From NCBI GenBank assembly GCA_012729395.1, contig JAAYDF010000159.1, positions 1 through 32,051 of the forward strand: 32,051 bases of DNA. Reading direction: 5' to 3'. Origin of the DNA: Phycisphaerae bacterium (GTDB lineage: Bacteria; Planctomycetota; Phycisphaerae; UBA1845; PWPN01). The notes below the pieces were generated by a model, which searched no databases, was not told the DNA's origin, and saw nothing but the letters and a program-made list of their open reading frames with translations. Made by a program: the position numbers and the translations under genes. Positions 27,335-29,823 of the stretch are shown here, one piece after another. Position 1 is the stretch's first letter. The number at the start of each line of letters is the position of its first letter.

Positions 27335-28069
27335 TCAGCCCGTCAGCAGACCCCAAAGCCCGGCATCACCGGCGGCCGCCAGCCGACACACACTGACCAA
27401 AGCCTGGATGATCACCAACACCAGCAGCACCAGCCCCACCCGAAAGAGTACCCCGCTCAGCAGGATGGAAATGCGATTCAATCGGCCGGCATGGTCGTGA
27501 ATCACGTCGAAGGTGTCCGACAACAGCCCCTCGTGATGCTCGGCGAAAAGCAGATCCTGGTACCAGGCGAACAGCCGGGCGCGATTGTCGGAATCGGGCA
27601 AGGCGGCCGCCTCCTCCAGAAGTTGATCGCCGTGGGCGGCCCGGTCGCCGTCGATCCGCAGGGCAACCTTGAGGAACCGATGAAAACGTTCCAGGTCAGG
27701 CACTGGCATGACGTGGACCAGATCAGCCACGACGCGAACCAGGTGGGTCACGCCGTAGTGGTGCGCGCGGTAGTCGCTGAACGTCGCGAACCGCCGGACC
27801 ACGGCGGGGCAACGCCAGAGGTACAGGCCCTCGGCGAAGGCGAAGGCGAGCGTCATCAGATAGAAGGTCATCCAGTTGAACGGCAGAGCCAGATCGATCC
27901 GCACGTTGCCGCAGATCACTAGCGGGTCCGGCCGGCCGACGTTGGGGGCGAACATGTGGCCGAGCACCGGCACGAGTAGTGCGCCTGCGAGACTGAACCG
28001 GGCCAAACGGCTGTTGCCCCAGCCACGCAGCGTCGTCCAGGACAAAGGATTAAGCAGAGCCCGGAGCAT
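27335..28069 (-). CDS. Membrane protein, unknown function
   Basis: A 244-aa protein chosen from ATG 28069 (MLRALLNPLSWTTLRGWGNSRLARFSLAG); AGGGA lies upstream. The frame is open to 28189, but that stretch is low-complexity. A hydrophobic segment near 26-45 (FSLAGALLVPVLGHMF), another near 60-80 (FNWMTFYLMTLAFAFAEGLYLW) and a long C-terminal one (ILLSGVLFRVGLVLLVLVIIQALVSV) are visible. A helical soluble part lies between them (DLVHVMPVPDLERFHRFLKVALRIDGDR...LFAWYQDLLFAEHHEGLL). No family is recognised. It is upstream of, and probably cotranscribed with, the DUF4855-like gene. An inverted pair of structured repeats lies upstream. Confidence 0.68.
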   Translation of the reverse strand: MLRALLNPLSWTTLRGWGNSRLARFSLAGALLVPVLGHMFAPNVGRPDPLVICGNVRIDLALPFNWMTFYLMTLAFAFAEGLYLWRCPAVVRRFATFSDYRAHHYGVTHLVRVVADLVHVMPVPDLERFHRFLKVALRIDGDRAAHGDQLLEEAAALPDSDNRARLFAWYQDLLFAEHHEGLLSDTFDVIHDHAGRLNRISILLSGVLFRVGLVLLVLVIIQALVSVCRLAAAGDAGLWGLLTG

Positions 28070-28260
28070 ACATCTCATCCCTGGCGGTAAGCGAGTAGGT
28101 CCCCCTGTCGCGCAACCGGAAGCCGACGGCCAGCCGGCCTGCGTTCGCGGGGCAGGCATCCGGCTTCCGCATCGCCTCCCCAACTCCATAGTGTCGGTTT
28201 TCCGTCACGCGGTGTCAATGTGCCCGGGAGTTGCAGTGCCAGAAAGTGGGCGTCCATGCT

Positions 28261-28353
28261 CCGAACCGCAACGCGGTTCCAGAGCAGAGCCCGGGGTCGC
28301 GCTGCGCACCCCGGGAACCATGCCCGCAACCGTGCCCCAACGCTGAAAGGGTT
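28261..28353 (-). repeat. Structured repeat, copy A (minus orientation)
   Basis: Read on the minus strand it runs AACCCTTTCAGCGTT, a variable part, a CCCGGGGTGCGCAGCGC core with its ACCCCGGG complement, and ends GGAACCGCGTTGCGGTTC. It carries two to three hairpins. The order and sequence match copy B, about 90 bases to its right on the opposite strand. Confidence 0.7.
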
Positions 28354-28443
28354 GCATACGTTTCCTGCCGGGGTGCCGGGACGTCGGAGCCGGCTTGGTG
28401 GCAAGGTCTGGGCGCCGAGGGGTTCATCCGCGGCCGGCTATGA

Positions 28444-28538
28444 AACCCCTTCAGGGTTTGTCGCATCGTGGTTGGTCTCATGCCCCAGGGTGCGCTGCGC
28501 GACCCCGGGCTGTGTTATTCAACACCGTTGGTGTTGGC
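28444..28538 (+). repeat. Structured repeat, copy B (plus orientation)
   Basis: On the plus strand it runs AACCCCTTCAGGGTTTG, a variable part, GCCCCAGGGTGCGCTGCGC with GACCCCGGGC, then TTCAACACCGTTGGTGTTG. Hairpins are CCCTTCAGGG-type, GC-core and AACACCGTTGGTGTT. Copies A and B diverge from the same centre and could pair with each other or act as ends of one element. Confidence 0.7.
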
Positions 28539-28677: not shown

Positions 28678-29823
28678 CTACTCGATGACGATCCAGCGGT
28701 AGTCCGCTCCCCAGTCTTGAAGTCTGATGCCAGGGGTAGCGATGGCCTTGCCGTGGGGCTTCCAGTCCTCGGTGGTGAAGAATTGAATACCATCGTGTGC
28801 TATAGCGGCGACCAGCTTTCCGCTCGGGGAGATCCTGGGAAACGCGAGCCCGTTTAGGAAGGTCGCCTCTCGCGATTTGACGTCGACCTTGGTTGTACCG
28901 ATCGGGGCCGTCGCACCTGTCGGTCGTGGGCTGGGGTATAGCAGGATGAATGTCTCGTCAGGGGAAACCGACGCGAACTCGCCCAGTGCGATTTCTTCGG
29001 TTTCTCCCGTATCGATGCTCAGTCGATACGTCACCGCAGGTGACGGCATGCCCCTGCATAGCACGGCTCGCTGATCGCCGGCCGGGAGCCCTGCGCTGTA
29101 GTAGATGAAGCGGCCGCTGTTGCCCCAAGCTGGACCAAGGTACTTGCTGTAGCCGTCCGGCGTTCCGACGGCATCCGATGCTTTGACCAGTTCGCGGAGC
29201 CGACCGTCAGCCGAGAGGACCGCAACGCCGTGTTCCTGTATATGGACATCATCCTCCCCGTACGATTGCGCGTAATAGAAGGCAACCTGTTTGGAATCCG
29301 GGGACCAGCGGAAGGGGTTCGTCACGACCCCTGTCGATATTCTGTGCACGCTCGTGGCGTCGCCGAGAACCACGGTTTCTGTGCGGTAGTCAAAGAAGAC
29401 GATTCTGGCGCCGTCGGGTGACAGGGCCGCGGGCCACATCCCCTTCACCGCCAGTTCCTCGAACGCACGGGCGGGTGCTCCGGGCTCAGCCGCCACCAGT
29501 TGGATGGGCTTGGCTCCATGGATATCCTCCCCGACCGATCGTAGCGTCAGGAGCCGTCGTCCGCGTGAATCCAGCAACGAGCATCGCAGGAACTCACCCG
29601 GGGCCTGCACGCCGAAGCCCTGTGGAGCCACTTTCTCTCCCCCGGCGGGGTCACACCACCTCAGTTGCCAGATCCGCCCCGAGAACCCGCCATCCTCGGT
29701 TCGCACACGTTCGCTACAGATGAACCGCTCGCGCTCGGCGATACTTGGCCGCGTGGTCTGGGCGGATGCCAGCGATATCGTGATACCGCATAGGATGCCA
29801 GTTAGCCCGAGCCTGGATATCAT
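28678..29823 (-). CDS. Secreted beta-propeller (TolB/WD40-like) protein
   Basis: A 381-aa protein with a clear signal peptide (MISRLGLTGILCGITISLASA, cut near residue 21). The rest shows repeated propeller blades typical of TolB/PD40 repeats: ALSPDGARIVFFDYR, RWSPDSKQVAFYYAQ, AWGNSGRFIYYSAG, SVSPDETFILLYP and RISPSGKLVAAIAHDG. The spacing of about 40-50 residues fits six or seven blades. Such domains bind proteins or ligands; no enzymatic motif is visible. ATG 29823 has a strong AAGGAGG site (29832-29838). It begins 21 bases after the stop of the Cys-rich secreted protein, so the three leftward genes at 28.7-32 kb form an operon. Function of the set is unknown. Confidence 0.8.
   Translation of the reverse strand: MISRLGLTGILCGITISLASAQTTRPSIAERERFICSERVRTEDGGFSGRIWQLRWCDPAGGEKVAPQGFGVQAPGEFLRCSLLDSRGRRLLTLRSVGEDIHGAKPIQLVAAEPGAPARAFEELAVKGMWPAALSPDGARIVFFDYRTETVVLGDATSVHRISTGVVTNPFRWSPDSKQVAFYYAQSYGEDDVHIQEHGVAVLSADGRLRELVKASDAVGTPDGYSKYLGPAWGNSGRFIYYSAGLPAGDQRAVLCRGMPSPAVTYRLSIDTGETEEIALGEFASVSPDETFILLYPSPRPTGATAPIGTTKVDVKSREATFLNGLAFPRISPSGKLVAAIAHDGIQFFTTEDWKPHGKAIATPGIRLQDWGADYRWIVIE

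Follow-up and report, generated by a model that had tools for sequence, protein, structure and literature searches.

What kind of element occupies the gap that separates open frames 27335-28189 and 28678-29823, both on the minus strand of the window, by which we mean the whole 32,051-nucleotide stretch of Phycisphaerae bacterium DNA analysed here? A preliminary description had reported two copies of a three-hairpin repeat lying on opposite strands around a centre of about 90 bases, and had proposed that they could be the ends of a mobile element or an element acting at the RNA level. Direct reading bears out this anatomy: positions 28263-28536 form an inverted, head-to-head pair of three-hairpin half-units around a variable centre of 88 bases (28355-28442), without a transposase gene. 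Half-unit A (28263-28360, plus strand) comprises a first hairpin, H1 (28263-28279; GAACCGC-AAC-GCGGTTC, with a loop of 3 nt), an AG foot (28288-28289) immediately 5' of H2 (28290-28315; CCCGGGGT...ACCCCGGG) and H3 (28338-28354), which has a single mismatched pair. Half-unit B (28437-28536) lies on the minus strand, with H3' at 28443-28459, H2' at 28484-28509 (one G-T pair) and H1' at 28520-28536 (CAACACC-AAC-GGTGTTG). The H1-H2 gaps are 10 and 10 nt and the H2-H3 gaps 22 and 24 nt; complementarity between the 52-nt inverted arms is 79%. When the region is folded in isolation, its z scores are -5.1 (plus strand) and -6.4 (minus strand), with none of 200 shuffles equally stable, part of this score arising because the two halves pair with each other. 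Neither neighbouring open frame gives a clue to the element, no transposase remnant was detected in the centre, which is the position of the transposase gene in relatives, and nothing resembling a promoter or terminator was seen around the element. Just outside it, near the start of open frame 27335-28189, another imperfect inverted repeat (19-nt arms, 79%) occupies 28117-28169.

The element recurs in the window's own genome (G000), a draft assembly of 5.74 Mb in 370 contigs. A DNA search with the window element returns 56 matching pieces; a covariance model, R1, built from 29 half-units aligned without structure, finds 41 half-units (A and B of the window match at 97.3 and 101.3 bits), 35 of them of the window's A/B kind and distributed over 20 places. 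Both halves, inverted, are carried by 14 of these 20 places, one place having three halves, and at the 6 places with a single half a contig end is never more than 54 nt away. Contigs C99, C127, C141, C171, C172 and C365 terminate inside or right beside copies, and it is the repeat that breaks the draft assembly there. The remaining 6 R1 matches score 36-42 bits, and at least two of them (C4, C282) adjoin places of a second end family. Beyond the outer hairpins the copies mostly have no sequence in common, with repeated flanks in some subsets. No transposase remnants were found in 15 stretches of this genome that hold A/B copies, nor was an intact transposase with A/B-type ends found in it; the two genes of the relevant transposase subclass present there (L031 and L032, see below) have different end sequences.

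Is the structure itself conserved? The compensated stems that had been quoted for the window, GAACCGC/GCGGTTC versus CAACACC/GGTGTTG, are real by direct reading. When 29 half-units are aligned by MAFFT with no structure supplied, pairing holds in 98.2% of cells and compensation is seen in 55, a count reached by 0 of 500 shuffles, with slid registers giving 0-2; the 6 pairs altered on both sides are, unlike the 55 cells, equalled in 128 of the 500 shuffles. Independent compensating events are few, perhaps seven by eye, because most compensated cells reflect the old split between A and B. The cmsearch alignment (A2) was left out of this analysis because it is fitted to the model. Further copies and covariation, the two points on which the preliminary description had made its reading depend, are both present.

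That description had also pointed to a possible transposase elsewhere, and in relatives a Y1 (HUH) transposase gene is indeed bracketed by such half-units. R1 matches occur in 28 of 61 genomes (relatives and own genome together), and the layout at L075/L119 and L083/L103 is half-unit (+), Y1 gene, half-unit (-): at L075 these lie at 916-1010, 1045-1497 and 1501-1601, and at L083 at 916-1018, 1012-1485 and 1501-1607, with Pfam Y1_Tnp matches of 7.6e-22 and 3.1e-20, respectively. The own genome provides a further case with other stem sequences, L032, where a plus half-unit (1311-1399) and a minus half-unit (2006-2095) flank a minus-strand gene (1405-1896). Forty Y1 loci were examined, 10 from the own genome (of 11 matches) and 30 from ten relatives (of more matches). 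R1 lies on both sides of 9 of 11 genes with a Y---Q--HH motif (L031, L032, L099, L100, L101, L103, L110, L118, L119) and on one side of the other two (L102, L109); no R1 match at E<=1 was found in the other 29 of the 40 loci. All 11 genes have the Y, the Q, the last H and a WQ, and 10 have the first H (L101 has R). The complete form contains a Y1/HUH transposase gene of ~150 aa between its ends. Among the 29, L108 is a broken gene of the same kind with a triple of hairpins on one side in the strict test described below; with it included, all 12 such loci from the own genome and the ten relatives pass that test on at least one side, 5 of them on both. Two others, L111 and L112, have a Y---Q--HH-like motif, a different C-terminus, no R1 match and no triple-hairpin ends that could be found, and are perhaps a separate Y1 subclass. 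At L031, positions 865-2577 hold yet a further end family (CCACGGGT cores) as several weak copies in tandem.

The window's own family is tied to this gene at several loci. The 26-nt H2 found in most B halves of the own genome also stands at L161 and L181, beside an intact transposase gene. In G012, from the same family, L072 holds a half whose H1 is identical to that of the window's A, and a truncated relic of the transposase C-terminus lies about a dozen nt inward of it (E 1.8e-4, in a small search). In the own genome the gene of L032 occurs once, while copies of its ends lie at about 11 further places; such recurrence of ends without the gene is the pattern termed REPtron in the literature. 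The first 2.4 Mb of G059 hold 16 pairs of H2 with a spacing of 131-150 nt, and one further pair, spaced 611 nt, encloses the transposase (the H2 expression matches nearly strand-symmetrically, and orientation was taken from R1). With A3, an alignment of 11 Y---Q--HH transposases, as the probe for the enzyme, 21 of the 61 genomes have both R1 and A3 matches, 7 only R1, 10 only A3 and 23 neither (p=7.6e-4, uncorrected for relatedness); an A3 match is thus absent from 7 of the 28 genomes with R1 matches. Sites without an element are also seen: G018, of the same genus as G022, lacks the full L083 element (25 versus 1176 bases between conserved flanks), and a basic copy present in G059 is missing from G056 (91 versus 584 bases at the site). 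These sites differ by more than the element, and a base-precise empty site of a basic A/B copy was found in neither G018/G022 nor G056/G059. In G022 a dispersed ~95-nt repeat unrelated to the hairpin ends (L083 787-884; more than 20 matches in G018) lies beside the transposase element.

How far the association reaches was assessed independently of R1. A3 was used to scan a named genome collection, and the best 80 of at least 580 confirmed candidate loci were kept, 75 of the 80 being assessable on both flanks. In a strict test requiring perfect stems and fixed gap ranges, triples were found at 41 of these 75 loci from the best 80, on both flanks at 22 and on one at 19, and on neither flank at 34. 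The same test finds triples in 1 of 775 shuffled flanks, in 5 of 2038 windows placed 700 nt or more away from the gene at the same loci and, with wider windows, at 0 of 22 other Y1 loci. It was retained although it misses the window copy itself, by reason of the mismatch in H3 of A and the G-T pair in H2 of B. Inverted similarity from flank to flank, again over 75 of the best 80 of at least 580 loci, has a median of 37 versus 11 across loci; it exceeds the highest of 75 shuffles at 58 of the 75 loci versus 13 of 75 cross-locus pairs, and fails to do so at 17. Across genomes H1, H2 and H3 still pair despite wholly different stem sequences, and 64 ends beside transposase genes follow one pattern: A at -2 (92%) and G at -1 (94%) before H2, mostly C or T at -3 (T 36%), G at -4 in 6%, giving a foot nYAG, with 3-nt H1 loops in 61 of the 64 and an H1-H2 gap of 9-13. 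By eye, triple ends are recognised in Bacteroides xylanisolvens XB1A (L190), Kaistella haifensis (L187), Verrucomicrobium relatives (L137, L152), a Fibrobacteres record (L157) and planctomycetes (L161, L181). The transposase genes themselves occur in Planctomycetota, Verrucomicrobiota, Bacteroidota, Fibrobacteres, Acidobacteria (Terriglobus, Pyrinomonadaceae) and other records. Three genomes (G032, G107, G180) have 9-10 of the genes each, several near-equal in score, suggesting that complete elements have multiplied there recently.

Which known system is this? The subterminal hairpins of IS200/IS605 elements lie on one strand. The present elements share with IS200/IS605 an HUH Y1 transposase and differ in having inverted triple hairpins in place of the small subterminal hairpins described in PMC6006769. 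By its Y---Q--HH motif and WQ, the cognate transposase is assigned to subclass 1.2, which, in Quentin et al. 2018 (PMC6006769), is defined by Y---Q--HH, is found mostly in Cyanobacteria and Bacteroidetes, and is said to have "no" REP and to lack typical terminal IS200 structures. The likeness extends to the length of ~150 aa, the H-hydrophobic-H arrangement and the low number per genome (2 in G000). The three-hairpin inverted ends and the wider range of phyla depart from that published account, and the bracketing triples contradict the description of the subclass, not membership as judged by motif; the automatic search of Quentin et al. required GT[AG]G near the foot, which the present ends lack. 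With the REPtron/BIME of class 2 TnpA-REP they share a gene bracketed by inverted hairpins, many gene-less pairs and a foot ending in AG, and the REPtron arrangement, a bracketed gene plus structures recurring without it, is found both with L032 in the own genome and in G059; they differ in having three hairpins per end, fixed gaps, no GTAG and a Y---Q--HH transposase. Class 3 TnpA-Y1 of Planctomycetes and Acidobacteria likewise combines a Y1 gene with atypical multi-copy secondary structures next to it, in phyla that overlap with those found here, but PMC6006769 gives it a CnGA foot and YV[VI][AENY]EQ, as opposed to nYAG and Y---Q--HH here. A class 3 REPtron is rejected by this foot and by the motif (Y---Q--HH versus Y----Q).

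A described RNA family, RF01687 (Acido-Lenti-1 RNA), appears to be part of these three-hairpin transposon ends. Its two hairpins are H2 and H1, the outer two of an end, joined by a link of the same order; it differs in covering two of the three hairpins in a single orientation and in being filed as an sRNA. No RNA family reaches its gathering score in the window, and the window copy is not a member of RF01687: H2 and H1 of half B (28484-28535) score 23.5 bits against a gathering score of 37 (E 0.0033 or 0.00081, depending on the stretch searched). Among the best 80 of at least 580 loci, 8 contain 13 matches at or above the gathering score, and none of the 13 is more than 180 nt from the transposase gene, with RF01687 on both sides of it at L158, L200 and L204; L109 likewise has it on both sides, and L100 has it upstream and, below the cut-off, downstream, the two loci together holding 4 gathering-score matches. 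All these genes are of subclass 1.2, and no RF01687 match was found in 8 control Y1 loci. Weinberg et al. 2010 list the family, from Acidobacteria and Lentisphaerae, as "probably" RNA, and a 2026 paper suggests that it may regulate Tannerella proteases; our literature search found no paper tying it to a transposase.

The window element could be read as a transcribed structured RNA, like RF01687 as filed, that regulates neighbouring genes and has the transposase merely as its carrier. The compensated stems would suit this reading, as would the construction of RF01687 from the outer two hairpins and its listing as "probably" RNA by Weinberg et al. 2010. It is at odds with the inverted copies at both ends of the transposase gene and with the lack of any promoter- or terminator-like pattern around the element, and the maintenance of pairing in H1-H3 despite wholly different stems between genomes fits DNA hairpins recognised by a protein, though also RNA. 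We thus hold a regulatory RNA to be improbable; the suggestion of an RNA-level element is not needed, whereas that of a mobile element's ends is supported by the inverted triples that bracket the Y1 gene in relatives and by the relic at L072, the window copy itself being a putative mobile copy.

Given the inverted multi-copy palindromes in intergenic positions and the presence of other Y1 genes in the genome, one might also think of an ordinary REP/BIME, tagged by GTAG/CGTC and moved by a class 2 TnpA-REP (RAYT). Yet the unit here has ~100 nt and three hairpins, as against one of 20-40, and the GT[AG]G foot is absent from the 64 ends (G at -4 in 6%, T at -3 in 36%). Triples are missing from the 22 other Y1 loci and R1 at E<=1 from all 29. 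Because the foot is missing and the other Y1 genes have neither triples nor R1 matches, the canonical RAYT/REP is rejected, and we see very little chance that it accounts for the element. Equally slight is the chance that the element is the MITE of a DDE transposon, such as one that targets TA, with the Y1 gene as a passenger. This reading draws on an extended subfamily of one genus (G056/G059), which inserts at TA with inverted GACC/GGTC ends; however, the genus has at least one other subfamily besides it, similarity between unrelated copies in the own genome stops at the outer hairpins, and the Y1 gene sits inside the ends across phyla. The extended repeat surrounds the hairpin pair, has TTAGACCGTGCC... 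/ TATAGCGTGC... ends, is flanked by TA and is polymorphic between species (L247 1451-1820; L266 1394-1916; in G059 near 851764-852132, 1418781-1419160 and 1652919-1653291), as would be expected had the pair been captured by a second element, one that targets TA. L247 and L266 are two near-precise insertions in G056 versus G059, and near-precise empty sites were found for this extended subfamily of G056 only, none for A/B copies. Their TA junction and GACC/GGTC ends suggest that a different transposase moved them, and they were not counted toward the Y1 reading.

We return to a mobile element served by a Y1 enzyme, and consider it probable that the window feature is a non-autonomous, transposase-less, BIME-like copy of a small mobile element, presumably mobilised in trans via single-stranded hairpins. 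The anatomy, the copy number, the covariation and the bracketing of this transposase class are observed; cutting, mobilisation in trans and the part played by the AG foot are inferred by analogy with TnpA-REP and IS608-like enzymes. The complete element would consist of inverted three-hairpin ends of ~100 nt around a gene for a Y1/HUH transposase of ~150 aa (Y---Q--HH), the window copy and its sisters having kept ends and a short centre only. The hairpins would fold while the region is single-stranded, and a transposase supplied by a full copy or a related gene could then recognise the AG foot and the hairpins of an end. Such a role of the foot has a parallel in TnpA-REP, where, according to PMC8266576, a foot ending in AG is thought to guide cutting at CT. 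The catalytic tyrosine would presumably cut and rejoin the strand (the A3 profile matches IS608 TnpA, 2a6m, at 8e-14), and the end pair might be copied or moved into further intergenic positions, in line with proposals made for TnpA-REP and REP/BIME.

More broadly, our literature search, which left most subscription papers outside (for example the Bertels RAYT classification), found no account of triple-hairpin ends beside subclass-1.2 genes. It seems to us reasonably likely that subclass-1.2 HUH enzymes constitute a separate, unrecognised REPtron-like class with triple-hairpin inverted ends and an AG foot in several phyla, and that RF01687, rather than being an RNA, represents the outer part of such DNA ends, its annotations marking complete or transposase-less copies, including the suggested Tannerella protease regulators. 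A subclass of HUH enzymes thereby gains a concrete candidate substrate with a testable end grammar (H1, 9-13 nt, AG, H2, ~22 nt, H3, inverted), and an Rfam RNA family would be reclassified as transposon DNA. The same reading accounts for a kind of intergenic repeat that recurs in Planctomycetota and Verrucomicrobiota and that coincides with assembly breaks in the genome from which the window comes.
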